From Pseudomonas abietaniphila (GTDB taxonomy: Bacteria; Pseudomonadota; Gammaproteobacteria; Pseudomonadales; Pseudomonadaceae), in assembly GCF_900100795.1 (NCBI RefSeq), contig NZ_FNCO01000001.1:558001-622000 (forward strand): DNA of 64,000 bases. Reading direction: 5' to 3'. A model generated the notes under the pieces. The model did not search any database and was not told the origin of the DNA. It saw only the letters and a program-made list of their open reading frames with translations. The translations under genes were made by a program, and so were the position numbers. This document shows, in pieces, positions 8,669 through 25,758 of the stretch. Positions within the stretch are counted from its first letter, which is position 1, and every line of letters begins with the position of its first letter.

Positions 8669-8708
8669 CCCGCAGGGCGTAGCGAGGCTCGCTCGTACGC
8701 CCTGCGGG
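8669..8708. repeat. palindromic REP-like element between convergent genes
   Basis: CCCGCAGGGCGTA and TACGCCCTGCGGG form a perfect 13-bp stem around a 14-base loop. A related, less perfect unit starts at 8590; both are preceded by TTGATTCT followed by CCCGCAG. It lies between the ends of the diguanylate cyclase gene and paoC and probably acts as a terminator for both. Confidence 0.7.
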
Positions 8709-8717
8709 CACAAGCAC

Positions 8718-10952
8718 TTACGCACTCATCGTTGGCGGTAACTCCATCAATTTGTCGAGGGTGATCGGCAGGTCTCGGATGCGTTTGCCGGTGGCGTGCG
8801 ACACAGCGTTGGCGACGGCAGCGGCCAGGCCCGTGATGCCGATCTCGCCAATGCCGCGTGCGCCGAACTCATTGAGTTCGTAATCGGGATAATCGAGCAG
8901 GATCACGTCAATTTCCGGCTGGTCCGCGTGCACGGGCACCACGTACTCGGCGTAGTTGTTATTGACCGGCATGCCGTCGCGTTCGTCGAAATCAGTGGCT
9001 TCGAACAGTGCCATTCCGACGCCCATGACGATGGCGCCTTCGACCTGATTGAGCGAGGTCTTGTGGTTGATCACTTTGCCGACGTCGATGGCGCTGACCA
9101 CTCGCGCGACGCGCAGCCGCGAGATGCCCGGATCCCAGCGAACTTCTACGAAATGCACGCCGAACGAGCGGAATGAATGCTTGCTGGTGTCGTTCATCCC
9201 GGTTTTCGCTTCGCCGAAAGCGCTGGACTGCTTTTGCGCCTTGAGCACGTCGGCGATGGCAAAGGATTTCTCTGCGCTTTTCAACTGACCCTGTTCAAAA
9301 CTGATCTGATCGGCCTTGGTCCCTGCAAACACGCCTTTGGGCGCTGCAGAGAAGGCTTTCAGCTGCTCGATGGCCTGACGCGTCGCTTCGGCTATCGCAG
9401 GCAACACGCTGGCCGTCGCCCATGAGCCGCCCGATACGGGCGCGGGCGGGAACGAGGAGTTGCCGAGTTCGACGTCGATTTTGTCCAGCGGTATGCCGGT
9501 GATGCTGCTGACCACCTGCGCCACGATGGTGTAGGTGCCGGTGCCGATGTCCTGCACACCGCAGATCGCGTACGCCGTGCCGTCTGCACGCAATGAAACC
9601 TGCGCCTCGGCGGGGGTGCGATAGGCGTCCCAGTTACAGGCCGCCATGCCATAGCCGATGATTTCAGTGCCTTCCTTCATCGAACCCGGTTTGGGATTGC
9701 GCTTGCTCCAGCCGAAGCGTTCAGCCGCCTGATCGATGCATTCCTGCAAATGGTTGCTGGACCATGGCAGGTTCTGGCTCTCGTCACGCTCCGAGACGTT
9801 AAGCTTGCGGAACTGCAGCGGGTCCATGTCGATCTTGTCGGCCATTTCGTCCATCGCCGATTCCAGCGCGAACAGTCCGGGCGCGGCGCCTGGCGCGCGC
9901 ATCGAGGTCGGTGTGCCGCGATTGACCTCGATGGTCTTGTGGGTCACCAGCACATTCGCGCAGCTGTACAGGCTTTTGGTCGAGGTGCCGCAGTTTTCCT
10001 TGTACGGGTCGGTGAACGAGGTGGTGTTGATCGACTCGTGACGGACCGACACCAGCTTGCCCTGGTCGTCGGTGGCCAGGCGCAGTCGCTGCCGGGTTTC
10101 AGGCCGATGCCCGGTGGTGGTGAACATCTGTTGCCGCGGAACCACCAGTTGCACAGGGCGGTTGAGGACTTTGGCTGCGCCACAGGCTGCGACCGAATGC
10201 GGCCAGATCCACAGTTTGCTGCCAAACCCCGAGCCAATGAACGGCGCGCGAACCTCGACCTTTTCAGGCATCAACCCGAAGATTTTCGCCAGCGAGTTGC
10301 GATGCGCAACCACGCCCTGGGAGGCCTCATAGACAATCAGTCGGCCATCTTCCCAACTGGCGACGGTGGCGTGCATTTCCATCGGGTTGTGGGTTTCAAC
10401 CGGCGTCGAATACGTCGCGTCGATGCTGTGCGCGGCGCTGTCAAAGGTCGATGCCGCATTCCCTCGCGTGTGGTTCGGGCTGCCGTCCTGCAGCGTGCCG
10501 GCTTTCAGGCCCTGCTCAAGGTTGGCAACGGCGGTGGTCTTGCTGTAACTGACCTTGATCTTGTAGGCCGCCGCGCGGGCGTGCTCGAACGTATCGGCCA
10601 CTACCAGGGCGACGAACTGCCCGGCGTAGTACACCGTGTCGTCCTCGAACGGCAGGCGGCTTTCGTCGGACTTGGCCGCCTTGAGGATCTGCGCGAAAGA
10701 CATCGGCAGCGCGGAGTTGTGGTACAGCGACGGGAAGTTGCCGTGGTGGAAAACCTCCAGCACGCCTGGGGATTTGCGCGCCGCGTCGAGGTCCAGGGCG
10801 GTGATCTTGCCGCTGGCGACGGAGCTGAAAACGCCGTAGCCGTACGCCATGTTTTTCAGGTGGTGATCAGAGGCGTACATGGCCGTGCCGGTCACTTTGC
10901 GTCGCCCGTCGATCCGGCGTGGCGCCGAGCCGATCATGGTTGAGTCCGTCAT
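8718..10952 (-). CDS. paoC: aldehyde oxidoreductase, molybdenum cofactor-binding subunit (PaoC-like)
   Basis: A 744-residue large subunit of the xanthine oxidase family, closest in type to E. coli PaoC. It starts IGSAPRRIDGRRKVTGTAMYASD and carries cofactor-binding segments such as GSGFGSKLW, RAPGAAPGLFALESAMDE and the C-terminal GARGIGEIGITG, whose glutamate is the catalytic base in this family. PaoC oxidises aldehydes to acids in the periplasm with a molybdopterin cytosine dinucleotide cofactor. It is the last gene of paoA-paoB-paoC with a 16-base gap from paoB. A paoD chaperone gene, needed for cofactor insertion in E. coli, is not seen in the window. Confidence 0.9.
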   Translation of the reverse strand: MTDSTMIGSAPRRIDGRRKVTGTAMYASDHHLKNMAYGYGVFSSVASGKITALDLDAARKSPGVLEVFHHGNFPSLYHNSALPMSFAQILKAAKSDESRLPFEDDTVYYAGQFVALVVADTFEHARAAAYKIKVSYSKTTAVANLEQGLKAGTLQDGSPNHTRGNAASTFDSAAHSIDATYSTPVETHNPMEMHATVASWEDGRLIVYEASQGVVAHRNSLAKIFGLMPEKVEVRAPFIGSGFGSKLWIWPHSVAACGAAKVLNRPVQLVVPRQQMFTTTGHRPETRQRLRLATDDQGKLVSVRHESINTTSFTDPYKENCGTSTKSLYSCANVLVTHKTIEVNRGTPTSMRAPGAAPGLFALESAMDEMADKIDMDPLQFRKLNVSERDESQNLPWSSNHLQECIDQAAERFGWSKRNPKPGSMKEGTEIIGYGMAACNWDAYRTPAEAQVSLRADGTAYAICGVQDIGTGTYTIVAQVVSSITGIPLDKIDVELGNSSFPPAPVSGGSWATASVLPAIAEATRQAIEQLKAFSAAPKGVFAGTKADQISFEQGQLKSAEKSFAIADVLKAQKQSSAFGEAKTGMNDTSKHSFRSFGVHFVEVRWDPGISRLRVARVVSAIDVGKVINHKTSLNQVEGAIVMGVGMALFEATDFDERDGMPVNNNYAEYVVPVHADQPEIDVILLDYPDYELNEFGARGIGEIGITGLAAAVANAVSHATGKRIRDLPITLDKLMELPPTMSA

Positions 10953-20613: not shown

Positions 20614-21714
20614 TCATTCGAAAGTGGCGCCCCGCGTGTTGACGAACAGCGAGTAGATCGAGTGGCTGCTGGCCATGAACAACCGGTTGCCTTCGCGTCC
20701 GCCAAAGCACAGGTTGGGGCAGCGTTCAGGCAGGGAAATATGCCCGATCGCCTTGCCTTGCGGGTTGAACACCCGCACACCGTCGAGCTTCTCCAGGTCG
20801 GCTTTCGGGTCGCCGTTGCCGCCCCAACCGCACCACAGGTTGCCGGCTTCGTCGCATTTCATGCCGTCGATGGCGGCAAAATCCAGCCCTTCAATGTGCT
20901 TGCGTCGGGCGCCCAGGGAGCCGTCTTCGCTCACTGTGATGGCCCAGATCAGGCGATTGGGCGTCGCACGGCCCTCGACCACATACAGGGTTTTCTCGTC
21001 CGGCGAAAAGCACAGGCCGTTCGGGCCTTTCATGTCGTCGATGACCCGGGTGACCTTGCCGCTCTGACCATCGATCCGGTACACGGCATGAGGCTGCGTC
21101 GGCGTGATCTTGTGCCCTTCGTAGTTGTTGCCGGTCTGGAAAGGCGGATCGGTGAACCAGATCGAGCCGTCGCGCTTGCAGACGATGTCGTTCGGCGAGT
21201 TGAAGGGTTTGCCGTCAAAGCTGTCCGCCAGCACGGTGATCCTGCCGTTGGGCTCGGTGCGGGTGATCCGACGACCTTCGCTGGTAGTGGTCGACCCCTC
21301 ACACACGATCAAACGCCCTTGGCGATCACGGCACATGCCGTTGGAGAAGTTTGAGTTCTGGCGATACACCGTGAAGGTGTCGGTGATCTCGTCCCAACGC
21401 ATGATGCGGTTGTTGGGGATGTCGCTGACCAGCAGATAGCGTCCGTCGCCGACCCACACCGGGCCTTCCGCCCAGCGCATGCCGGTGGCGAGCTTTTCGA
21501 CCCCGGCGTTGAACACGCGCAGTTCCAGAAAGCTGTCGTCGAGGATGTGGATCAGAGGGTCCGGATAACGCTGGCTAAGCGGTTCCACTGCACTGGCGAT
21601 GCGGGGCAGGGTGATGCTGCCAGCGGCGGCGAGGGTGGCCGAAACAGCCAGGGATTTTTTCAGGAAACGTCTGCGACCGTCGTTGCCGGGCAGGTCAGAA
21701 AGCGTTGAGTCCAT
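20614..21714 (-). CDS. Tat-exported SMP-30/gluconolactonase-like protein
   Basis: A 366-residue six-bladed beta-propeller of the SMP-30/gluconolaconase/LRE family with a twin-arginine signal (GRRRFLKKSLAVSATLAAAGSI...ASA). Metal-ligand segments are visible: the glutamate of RWAEGPVW, the asparagine of NSPNDIVCKRDGSIWFTDP and the aspartate of AAIDGMKCDEAGNLWCGW. Such enzymes hydrolyse aldonolactones in the periplasm. The ATG at 21714 has GGAGAACG upstream. The neighbouring membrane dehydrogenase operon on the same strand (22.0-25.8 kb) could supply lactones, but this link is inference; a terminator separates them. Confidence 0.88.
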   Translation of the reverse strand: MDSTLSDLPGNDGRRRFLKKSLAVSATLAAAGSITLPRIASAVEPLSQRYPDPLIHILDDSFLELRVFNAGVEKLATGMRWAEGPVWVGDGRYLLVSDIPNNRIMRWDEITDTFTVYRQNSNFSNGMCRDRQGRLIVCEGSTTTSEGRRITRTEPNGRITVLADSFDGKPFNSPNDIVCKRDGSIWFTDPPFQTGNNYEGHKITPTQPHAVYRIDGQSGKVTRVIDDMKGPNGLCFSPDEKTLYVVEGRATPNRLIWAITVSEDGSLGARRKHIEGLDFAAIDGMKCDEAGNLWCGWGGNGDPKADLEKLDGVRVFNPQGKAIGHISLPERCPNLCFGGREGNRLFMASSHSIYSLFVNTRGATFE

Positions 21715-21806
21715 GTAGCGTTCTCCGTTGATTGTTTTTCTTACGGGCGCGCTAGTAATACCTTGTGATAAGACATCGTACAAGTGTTGCGGTGGCGCGT
21801 TAAAGG

Positions 21807-21893
21807 GTAGGAGCGCGCTTGCCCGCGAGTGCAGTAGGTCTGGCTACGAGGCTGTTCATGGCTCACCGCAATCGCGGGCAAGCGCGCTCCTAC
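21807..21893. repeat. paired REP palindrome, family GTAGGAGCGCGCTTGCCCGC
   Basis: Two perfect 22-base inverted arms (21807-21828 and 21872-21893) flank 43 bases. The same unit recurs at 38316-38337 (single), 39872-39958 (imperfect pair) and 55278-55297 (degenerate single). Confidence 0.85.
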
Positions 21894-21948
21894 AGGTTTT
21901 TACGCAGTGCCGATCACGTATTTCGATGCACGTTTTGATGACGCTAAA

Positions 21949-22018: not shown

Positions 22019-23245
22019 TTACTTCGCTCGCAAGGCTTCGCGCACATCTTTCACGCTGGCGCTGGACACCGCCGGCGCGGCGTTGCCCCAGGTGTTGCGC
22101 ACGTAGGTCAGCACGTCAGCGACGTTATCGTCTGACAGGTTCCAGCCGAACGCCGGCATGGCCGGGGCGGTAGGCGCCGCGTCGGTGGCGCCTGCGCGAC
22201 TGCCCGCCAGGACCACACGGATCAGCGACGACGGGTCGTTGCTGTTGATCAGCGGGGCCATCGCCAGTTTCGGGAACAGGTTCGGCGCGCCTTCACCATT
22301 GGGCGTATGGCACGCCGAGCAGCGGTCGGCGTAGATCGCCTTGCCTGCCACCATCGAGGCATCGGTCGCTGCAACCGGTTTGGCCGCTTCCACCGGCTTC
22401 GCGCCGTCCTTCAGGTAAACCGCCACGGCCATCAGGTCCTGATCGGTCCAGTGTTGCGACGAGTGTTCGACTTCTTCGGCCATCGGCCCGGAGGCGATGT
22501 CGAAGCGGTTGGCGCCAGTCTTCAGGTACTTGACGATGTCGTCCTCGCTCCACGCGCCAAGCCCGTCGTGGCCGGTCGAGGTGATATTCGGCGCCACCCA
22601 GTTCTGCAGGTTGGCGCCGGTCAGGAACTGGTCATTCTTGTCCCCGCCAATCAGGTTTTTCGGCGTGTGGCAGGTGCCGCAGTGGCCCAGTCCTTCGACC
22701 AGATACGCGCCCCGGTTCCACTGTTCGGACTTCTGCGGATTGGCCTTGAATTCGCCTTCCTTGAAGTTGATCAGGTTCCAGCCGATCAGGCTGGTGCGCA
22801 CGTTGAACGGGAAGGGCAGCTGATTGGTCTCGACCTTGTTGTCCACCGGATCGACGGTTTTCAGATACGCGAAGATCGCCAGATTGTCCTCACGCAGGAC
22901 CTTGGTGTACGCGGTGAACGGCATGGCGCCATACAAGCGTTTGCCGTCCAGGCCGTGGCCCTTGGACATGGCGTTCTGGAAGTCTTCGAAGCTCCAGCGA
23001 CCGATGCCGTTGACCGGGTCCGGCGTGATGTTGGCGCCCGCCAGCTTGCCGAACGGCGTGTCGAGGATCACGCCGCCGGAAAACAGCGGTTTGCCCGGCA
23101 TGGTGTGACACGCCGTACAGTCGCCAACCGTGGCCAGGTAGCGACCTTTTTCCACGATGTTGTAGGAATCGGCACCGGTTGCGGCGTGAGCGATTGAAAA
23201 GGACAGTCCGATGACGCCCGCACAAACAGTCAGAAGGGTTTTCAT
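22019..23245 (-). CDS. triheme cytochrome c subunit of a membrane-bound FAD dehydrogenase
   Basis: A 408-residue protein with a signal peptide (cleavage after AHA) and three c-type heme sites: CTACH at 43-47, CGTCH in the middle and CSACH in the last third. It matches the cytochrome subunits of gluconate 2-dehydrogenase, sorbitol and related GMC dehydrogenases, which pass electrons from the flavoprotein to ubiquinone in the inner membrane. Its ATG overlaps the stop of the flavoprotein gene (ATGA). If the small subunit gene upstream is truly broken this cytochrome would lack its partner complex. Confidence 0.92.
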   Translation of the reverse strand: MKTLLTVCAGVIGLSFSIAHAATGADSYNIVEKGRYLATVGDCTACHTMPGKPLFSGGVILDTPFGKLAGANITPDPVNGIGRWSFEDFQNAMSKGHGLDGKRLYGAMPFTAYTKVLREDNLAIFAYLKTVDPVDNKVETNQLPFPFNVRTSLIGWNLINFKEGEFKANPQKSEQWNRGAYLVEGLGHCGTCHTPKNLIGGDKNDQFLTGANLQNWVAPNITSTGHDGLGAWSEDDIVKYLKTGANRFDIASGPMAEEVEHSSQHWTDQDLMAVAVYLKDGAKPVEAAKPVAATDASMVAGKAIYADRCSACHTPNGEGAPNLFPKLAMAPLINSNDPSSLIRVVLAGSRAGATDAAPTAPAMPAFGWNLSDDNVADVLTYVRNTWGNAAPAVSSASVKDVREALRAK

Positions 23246-25005
23246 AGTGTGATCATCTCCCCTGGACGCTTGAGGTAGCGGGTGCGGATGGCGTCCGCCG
23301 CTTTGAAGGCCAGCGCCGCGACGGTGCCGGTCGGGTTGTAGCCAGGGTTCTGCGGGAAGGCCGAGGAACCGACCACGAACAGGTTCGGTACGCCCCAGAC
23401 TTGCAGGTACTTGTTGACCGAGCTGTTCTTCGGATCGGCGCCCATGATGAAGCCGCCGACGATGTGCGAAGACTGATAGGGCGAACTGTTCCAGTGGCCG
23501 GTCTGGGCGCTCGGCACCATCTGGCGCGGGTTCATGCTCTTGGCGATTTCGCCGACCTTGCCCGTGACATACGCCGCCATCTTGCGGTCGTTTTCCGGGA
23601 AGTCGAAGGTGATGCGCAGCAGCGGACGCCCCAGCGGATCCTTGTAGGTAGGGTCCAGCGACAGGTAGTTGGTGCGTGTGGCGTAGCTGCTTGCTTCACA
23701 GCCGATGGACATGGTGCTGGCGTAGTTCTTGACCGTGGCCTTCTTCCATTCCGAACCCCAGGCAGGTGTGCCGGGTGGCAGCGGGCGCGAGTCGATAGGC
23801 GCGGCACCGATCGGCGTGACCCGCGTGCTGCCGCCACCGACGAAGCCCAGGCCCGAATGGTCGAAGTTGTCGTTGTTGAACTCGTCGATCCCCATGCCGA
23901 TCGCGCCGCCACCGATAAACGGGTTGAAGTTCTTGTCATCGAAGAACATGCGCACGCTGTTGGCGGTCTGGTACGCGTAATTACGGCCAGTAGTGCCGGT
24001 GTTGGTGACCGGGTCGTACGGTTGGCCGACGCCGGACAGCAACATCAGGCGCACGTTTTCAAAGATGAACGCGCTGATCACCACCAACTCCGCAGGCTGT
24101 TCCCACTCTTCGCCATTGGCGTCCATGTAGACGATACCGGTGGCGCGTTTACCGCTGCCGTCCATGGTCACGCGCAGGACTTCGCAGTTGGTCATCGCGG
24201 TGAAATTCGGCTTGCGGATCAGCACCGGCAACACGGTGGTGATGGCGCTGGCCTTGGAGTAGTTGGCGCAACCGTAGTTGGTGCAGAAGCCGCAATAGGT
24301 GCACGGTCCCATCGCGACGCCCAACGAGTTGACGTAAGGCTGGGACACCAGCGCCGATGGCACCGGAAACGGCTTGTAACCCAGGTTTTTCGCGGCTTCG
24401 GCAAACAGTGTCGGCGCGTAGGTCTGTTTCGTCGGCGGGTTGGGGTACTCCTCGGAGCGCGCACCCTCGAAGGTGTTGCCGCCTTCCTGAATCACGCCCT
24501 TGATGTTGCCGGCCTTGCCCGAGACGCCTGCCAGGCGGTCGAACTTGGTGTAGAACGGCTCCATTTCTTCCCAGTCGGTGCCCCAGTCTTGCAGGGTCAG
24601 TTCCGGCGACAGTTCCTTGCCGTACCGTTCCTTGAGGTGCGTGGCCAGATGGAATTCGTGAGGCTGGAAGCGGAAGGTGATGCCCGCCCAGTGATTACCC
24701 GCGCCGCCTGTGCCGTTGCCGGGGTGGAAAGAACCCCAGGCGCGCATGGGTAGCGCTGTCTCGGTGACGCTGTTACGAATGGTCGTGGTGTTTTGCCGGG
24801 TCCTCAGCATCAGTTCCTGGCGACGGGAATAACGCAATTCGTCGGCCGCCGAGGCGATGTTGAAGTCCGCAGCGGTGTCGCGCCATGGCCCACGTTCGAA
24901 GCCGATGATCTTCAGGTTTTCGTCAGCCAGTTCATTGGCGATGATGGATCCGGCCCAGCCGAGCCCGACAACCACGACGTCCGTGGAAGGTAGTTTTTTG
25001 GCCAT
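23242..25005 (-). CDS. GMC-family FAD dehydrogenase, catalytic subunit
   Basis: A 587-residue flavoprotein of the glucose-methanol-choline family, of the membrane gluconate/2-ketogluconate/sorbitol dehydrogenase type. The N-terminal FAD-binding motif VVVGLGWAGSIIANELAD, a GNGTGGAGNHWAGITFRF segment, a cysteine cluster (CTYCGFCTNYGC) of the kind that can bind an iron-sulfur centre in these enzymes, and the C-terminal GSSAFPQNPGYNPTGTVAALAFKAAD are present. It has no export signal of its own; relatives are co-exported with the Tat-signalled small subunit. It starts 6 bases after that subunit's stop. The exact substrate cannot be read from sequence. Confidence 0.92.
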   Translation of the reverse strand: MAKKLPSTDVVVVGLGWAGSIIANELADENLKIIGFERGPWRDTAADFNIASAADELRYSRRQELMLRTRQNTTTIRNSVTETALPMRAWGSFHPGNGTGGAGNHWAGITFRFQPHEFHLATHLKERYGKELSPELTLQDWGTDWEEMEPFYTKFDRLAGVSGKAGNIKGVIQEGGNTFEGARSEEYPNPPTKQTYAPTLFAEAAKNLGYKPFPVPSALVSQPYVNSLGVAMGPCTYCGFCTNYGCANYSKASAITTVLPVLIRKPNFTAMTNCEVLRVTMDGSGKRATGIVYMDANGEEWEQPAELVVISAFIFENVRLMLLSGVGQPYDPVTNTGTTGRNYAYQTANSVRMFFDDKNFNPFIGGGAIGMGIDEFNNDNFDHSGLGFVGGGSTRVTPIGAAPIDSRPLPPGTPAWGSEWKKATVKNYASTMSIGCEASSYATRTNYLSLDPTYKDPLGRPLLRITFDFPENDRKMAAYVTGKVGEIAKSMNPRQMVPSAQTGHWNSSPYQSSHIVGGFIMGADPKNSSVNKYLQVWGVPNLFVVGSSAFPQNPGYNPTGTVAALAFKAADAIRTRYLKRPGEMITL

Positions 25006-25011
25006 GTCGAA

Positions 25012-25758
25012 TTAACCCTTCTTGGTCCAGGCGGAGCTGCCGATGATGGAGAGCGGCACGAGGTCGAGCTTCTGGTTATGCAGGCCGATGTACTCGCGGT
25101 AGTCGTAGCGGGCACCGGGGAAGCCAATCATTTTCCACGACACCATGTCGCGGTTGCCGCCGTAGACCGGGTCGGCGAAGAAGCCTTCCATGGTGTTGCC
25201 CAATATCTGCTGGAAGAACAGCTTGGCGTCGATGCCGTCCAGGGCGATCTCGCCTTTTTCCAGGCCGACAAGGACCTTGTCCTGTTCTTCCGGGGCAAGG
25301 GCGGCGAAGCCCTTCTGGAACTGCTTCTGGCAGTACGCCTCAAGCCCGGCCAGGCCAAGGCGGTAACGGTCGCGTGGCACGAACTGCGACTGATCGCCTT
25401 GCATCGGCGTGCCTTTTTCGAAAGGGCCCTGCATGTACAGACGGCTGAACGTGCCGTATTCACCGGCCAGCTGGCGGTCGATGAACACGGCGCAACCGGC
25501 GTCTTTGCCGCTTACGCTCAATTCATCGGCCGGAATCAGGCGAGCGACGATGGCTTCGACCGCCGTGGCCTCGGCAGCACTGAAGAACTGCCAGCCTGGT
25601 GTGTCCTAGTGCATCGGACCGTTGTGGTCGAAGGGCACCCATTGTGGCACGCCGACGACGGTGGCGGCCTTGGCCGTAGCGGCAGCACCCACGGCCAGCG
25701 ACGCTGCTGAGGATTTCAGCAACTGCCGGCGGGTGAAGCCTTTGGATTTCTCTGTCAT
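25012..25758 (-). pseudogene. gluconate 2-dehydrogenase subunit 3-like gene interrupted by an amber codon
   Basis: The frame from the ATG at 25758 to the stop at 25012 is 249 codons and reads MTEKSKGFTRRQLLKSSAAS (Tat signal), ...VPQWVPFDHNGPMH, then TAG at codon 51 (25606-25608), then continues in the same frame as DTPGWQFFSAAEATAVEAIVARLIPADEL to the end. Both halves match the small (gamma) subunit of membrane FAD dehydrogenases. No frameshift is needed: one nonsense codon separates the signal peptide and linker from the whole mature domain. Restart inside the gene would give a protein without export signal, so the dehydrogenase complex is probably not exported, unless the TAG is read through or is a sequencing error. 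Confidence 0.85.

Follow-up and report, generated by a model that had tools for sequence, protein, structure and literature searches.

The window, a stretch of 64,000 nucleotides from Pseudomonas abietaniphila, carries on its minus strand three adjacent genes for the small (subunit 3), flavoprotein and cytochrome c subunits of a predicted gluconate 2-dehydrogenase-type complex, with a gluconolactonase-like gene downstream (Table 1). The subunit 3 frame is 249 codons long, running from an ATG at 25758 to a TAA at 25012–25014, and has a single internal stop. The initial annotation had reported a TAG at codon 51 of an otherwise open frame consisting of a Tat signal and a subunit 3 domain, and this was confirmed.

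Table 1 Features of the interrupted dehydrogenase operon in the window.
Feature	Position	Strand	Family or comparison
Internal amber stop (TAG) at codon 51 of subunit 3, in frame	25606–25608	-	Sense codon in 101/101 distinct related loci
Subunit 3 codons 1–50 (Tat-type signal peptide, then the beginning of the mature chain)	25609–25758	-	
Mature domain of gluconate 2-dehydrogenase subunit 3, 197 codons and stop	25012–25605	-	PF13618
GMC-family flavoprotein (large) subunit, 587 aa, intact	23242–25005	-	PF00732 and PF05199
Cytochrome c subunit, 408 aa, intact	22019–23245	-	PF00034
SMP-30/gluconolactonase-like protein, Tat-like start (by eye), downstream of the operon	20614–21783	-	

Residues 1–50 contain the motif RRQLLK and an AKA-A cleavage-like site (both identified by eye) and gave a weak match to the Tat-target model TIGR02811 (E = 4e-4), which is below the cut-off of that model. 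The 197 residues that follow the stop match Gluconate_2-dh3 (PF13618) over positions 2–135 of 135 (E = 5.5e-34; small subunit score 117.9 bits, cut-off 23.4), in agreement with the earlier claim that a complete domain lies beyond it. When translated past the stop, the frame shares 97% identity over 248 residues with the uninterrupted ortholog of Pseudomonas sp. NFACC02, and the match is therefore far beyond chance. The description of the stop as lying between the Tat signal and the mature domain was correct in part. The Pfam domain does begin beyond it, 11 residues past the amber codon, but by eye the stop is about 20 residues past the cleavage site, inside the exported chain and in a conserved linker that precedes the domain.

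Both partner genes are open frames, as had been annotated. The N-terminus of the flavoprotein leads straight into the FAD-binding motif GLGWAG with no signal peptide (by eye), and its nearest solved relatives are the large subunits of fructose dehydrogenases. By eye, the cytochrome subunit has a Sec-type signal and contains CxxCH three times; its nearest solved relative is the glucose dehydrogenase beta subunit 8hdd_B. PF13618 matches once above its cut-off in the whole genome, where no second subunit 3 over this cut-off was found. Replacement of the small subunit by a paralog was rejected, the other match to the family (contig C10) scoring 14.8 bits, below the cut-off. The proposal that the small subunit carries the only export signal of the flavoprotein fits the direct start of the flavoprotein at its FAD-binding motif, the lack of a second subunit 3 over the cut-off, and the Tat signal on the small subunit of the homologous complexes described in two reports (PMC6719666, PMC9692623).

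In 70/70 GTDB loci the small subunit is followed by a flavoprotein match, and 60 of these loci also have an adjacent cytochrome match (two of the other ten are cut by contig ends). A lactonase match was present in the DNA around just 9 of these 70 loci, one of them the partial NFACC02 copy, and the SMP-30/gluconolactonase-like gene is thus probably not a core part of the operon. Between the cytochrome and lactonase genes of the window there is a dispersed, palindromic REP-like element of about 90 bases (21807–21899), with many matches, in places to the two strands at once, among those listed for three of the four related genomes searched. In NFACC02 (L179:8330-10250, G419) about 1.7 kb of other DNA separates the cytochrome gene from the lactonase remnant; the end of the cytochrome gene is repeated after this insert, and the lactonase is without its first 151 residues. 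The insert includes a 430-aa frame (8673–9965) with a weak match to a StcE beta-sandwich Pfam family (29.5 bits, cut-off 27).

The position of codon 51 was extracted from 118 loci, obtained by whole-genome searches and a scan of GTDB genomes. A stop occurs in one of them, that of the genome itself; removal of this locus and of duplicates left 101 distinct loci, all with a sense codon (Table 1). Codon 51 encodes tyrosine in 37/37 loci with at least 73% identity (32 TAC, 5 TAT), a dividing line set after inspection of the data, and in these 37 closest loci the alignment begins at residue 1 or 2 after the stop. Tyrosine is present in 11/34 loci at 60–73% identity, the others having I, V, F, L, P, Q or N, and in 0/30 loci below 60%; in distant loci the codon position was extrapolated without gaps where the alignment starts later and is hence approximate.

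The nearest relative found in the comparison collections, in which each species is represented by one genome, is NFACC02, with 96% identity after the stop and 50/50 identical residues before it. Its small subunit is uninterrupted and its gene order is the same. The usual boundary between species is 95% DNA identity, and since the NFACC02 DNA is about 90% identical over the region, NFACC02 probably represents another species. A search of 398 genus genomes with the uninterrupted NFACC02 protein gave a match at E = 1e-20 in 217 (own genome included), and among the matches listed an in-frame TAG was seen in this genome alone. Thirteen of the listed matches contain one TAA or TGA; these are probably natural ends because the alignments extend to query residue 244 or beyond. 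Two further loci (L014 and L018) are similar to these thirteen.

The first 50 codons differ from those of NFACC02 by 0 nonsynonymous and 11 synonymous changes. The dN/dS ratio against NFACC02 is 0.048 for the part after the stop, and the flavoprotein and cytochrome genes have ratios of 0.028 and 0.032, respectively. When changes after the stop were polarised with three outgroups, 1 nonsynonymous and 5 synonymous changes were assigned to this lineage (six changes in all, sites of outgroup disagreement having been dropped). About 17 nonsynonymous changes would be expected if the sequence had been neutral over the whole branch (P of one or fewer = 7e-7), and neutrality for 30% of the branch gives P = 0.04. 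A long-standing pseudogene was therefore rejected, as constraint after the stop is not relaxed. Since this sequence is still constrained, the stop is either recent, arising roughly no earlier than the final third of the branch, or a base-call error. Unrelaxed constraint is in keeping with a very recent event, but a sequencing error or functional readthrough would account for it just as well.

The quality of the assembly was judged by comparing ORFs with NFACC02 (at least 100 aa and at least 75% identity; ORFs without third-position bias and overlapping ORFs were dropped), using filters under which a strongly decayed gene would go unnoticed. Nine of the 114 coding-like NFACC02 ORFs matched in this contig meet an in-frame stop here. 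Eight of the nine stops fall within the first 50 residues, seven with partial identity upstream and the eighth with 5/5 comparable residues; from their early position and upstream identity, these eight are probably over-extended starts or spurious ORFs. One of the nine, a 115-aa ORF (355127–355474) with stops at residues 44 and 49 and 42/48 identity upstream, was taken as a doubtful ORF. The subunit 3 gene alone has full upstream identity over a long stretch before the stop (50/50), and its internal stop is the only convincing one among the 114 conserved ORFs. The reverse comparison gave stops in 5/116 ORFs, all within the first 46 residues. Two NFACC02 ORFs are split over frames in this genome (contig C51, 341087–342079 and 434353–435342), and one ORF of this genome is split over frames in NFACC02. 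An error-prone region is not supported by these comparisons, and the assembly has no clear excess of breaks relative to NFACC02.

Programmed or suppressed readthrough would need a suppressor tRNA or a weakened release factor 1. From 155 first-look tRNA candidates, 150 were scored against RF00005, giving 57 tRNA matches in the genome (56 over the Rfam cut-off), and ARAGORN was run on the DNA around them (48 loci). No CTA (CUA) anticodon was found at the 57 matches, and amber suppression by a dedicated tRNA was rejected on this basis. One tRNA-like match at C20:22690-22770 in this genome, which scores 27.3 bits against the Rfam cut-off of 29, is a second tRNA-Ser(TGA) according to ARAGORN. The gene for release factor 1 (prfA, TIGR00019) is an open frame scoring 560 bits, so that at the open-frame level a weakened factor is not supported. 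Programmed readthrough would also be expected to keep the stop at the same site in relatives, where it occurs in 0/101 loci. TAG ends one of the 29 window genes chosen from the comparison, TAA nine and TGA 19. Nothing in these sequences points to recoding; with no CUA-anticodon tRNA found, release factor 1 open and no stop in 101 distinct relatives, readthrough is unlikely.

Of the options named in the initial annotation (loss of function, sequencing error and readthrough), all of them sound, the comparison with relatives favours loss of function. The sequence is probably a recent nonsense allele of the Tat-signal-bearing small subunit of a membrane-bound flavoprotein–cytochrome c dehydrogenase of the gluconate 2-dehydrogenase type, an allele that appears private to this genome among the loci examined, in an operon that appears accessory. 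Translation of the small subunit would end after 50 residues. The folded flavoprotein, having no export signal, would not be carried through the Tat pore and would be stranded or degraded in the cytoplasm, and the Sec-exported cytochrome subunit would be left without its catalytic partner. This stranding and silencing of the complex, with loss of periplasmic oxidation, should follow because the anatomy is the same as that of the published complexes. The 600 bases that come next would be untranslated, and reduced expression of the two genes downstream may be a further consequence.

An error in base calling or assembly, in which case the gene would be intact and the complex would work normally, is considered improbable. 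Little beyond the single base separates the gene from functional orthologs: no nonsynonymous difference from NFACC02 precedes the stop, constraint after it is normal, and a single base change would turn the tyrosine codons found in close relatives into TAG. Against this, no other convincing internal stop was seen in the 114 ORFs (two frame-split ORFs aside), and the assembly, of 54 contigs, has a completeness rating of 100% and a contamination rating of 0.8%. A random error would also be unlikely to land as a stop, since a stop results from only 77 of the 2223 single-base changes possible in the gene.

Very improbable is functional amber readthrough, by which an amino acid inserted at codon 51 would yield a low level of full-length exported subunit and a reduced level of the complex. 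The region after the stop is still conserved, and an inserted residue might be tolerated at a linker site where distant homologs vary (at an approximate position), but the tRNA and release factor results weigh against it, and no examined relative keeps the stop at codon 51, giving no sign of a selected mechanism. More improbable still is a regulatory role, in which low-level readthrough would throttle Tat export of the flavoprotein at translation and so restrict this lineage to few copies of the periplasmic dehydrogenase. The least probable of these readings is reinitiation past the stop, from an in-frame TTG at 25521 that opens a 169-aa frame, to give a signal-less subunit that binds the flavoprotein in the cytoplasm; no clear ribosome-binding site was seen by eye, and the product, having neither a Tat signal nor the first part of the Pfam domain, would not restore export.

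The operon subtype is sparse in the genus, and the subunit 3 gene is accessory: a match at E = 1e-60 was found in 34 of 398 sampled genomes (own genome included). In another genus member (G034; L020 and L024, C1:1068235-1068713) a distant subunit 3 lies in two pieces in different frames and may be a frameshifted copy. With the damaged lactonase of NFACC02 and this possible frameshift, damage in or around such operons is not confined to a single lineage, in keeping with a dispensable function. Other genus members (G009, G112, G163 and others) have open frames of about 845 aa that run through the subunit 3 match and may be fusions of the small subunit and flavoprotein. A mobile or viral origin was rejected: viral contigs gave one pattern match but no flavoprotein relative. 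Four plasmid records matched, and the two long matches are from Rhizobium at 73% identity.

The nonsense allele predicts that the isolate, unlike its close relatives, is without one periplasmic sugar-acid oxidation step. In Pseudomonas sp. JP233, 2-ketogluconic acid is reported to be the principal metabolite that solubilises phosphate (PMC9777792), and if 2-ketogluconate is the product here the loss could matter for phosphate release. No interrupted small subunit of gluconate dehydrogenase in Pseudomonas was found among the matches listed from the titles and abstract openings of the open-licence literature. With its two partner genes open, the locus would also serve as a naturally occurring one-base knock-out of a Tat hitchhiker subunit, in which the fate of the stranded flavoprotein could be studied; in other respects it is an ordinary nonsense allele.

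In the FAD glucose dehydrogenase of Burkholderia, the small subunit is described as a Tat hitchhiker on which the FAD subunit depends to fold and to be secreted (PMC6719666). The P. abietaniphila locus shares with the Burkholderia cepacia enzyme and its hitchhiker gamma subunit the three-component logic (PMC6719666), and its flavoprotein and cytochrome are related, but its small subunit has no match at E = 0.01 among solved structures. The NFACC02 operon differs in its downstream lactonase-like gene, which matches from residue 152 on. For the gluconate 2-dehydrogenase of Gluconobacter, SignalP is reported to predict a Tat/SPI signal in the small subunit, a Sec/SPI signal in the cytochrome and no signal in the flavoprotein (PMC9692623). 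The gene order (small subunit, flavoprotein, cytochrome) and the distribution of signals are the same here, the Tat and Sec signals having been identified by eye, and the sizes are similar, at 236, 592 and 437 aa in Gluconobacter and 248, 587 and 408 codons here, counting the interrupted gene (PMC9692623). Gluconate is a family label, the substrate here being putatively gluconate or a polyol. Unlike in Gluconobacter, the small subunit is interrupted by a stop, and both activity and substrate are predicted. A PF13618 small subunit, an adjacent signal-less GMC flavoprotein and a multi-haem cytochrome c are all encoded, but the stop at codon 51 precludes a small subunit translated in full with its Tat signal. 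The comparison suggests that the locus is a gluconate 2-dehydrogenase-type complex by descent, the working state of which is predicted to have been lost.
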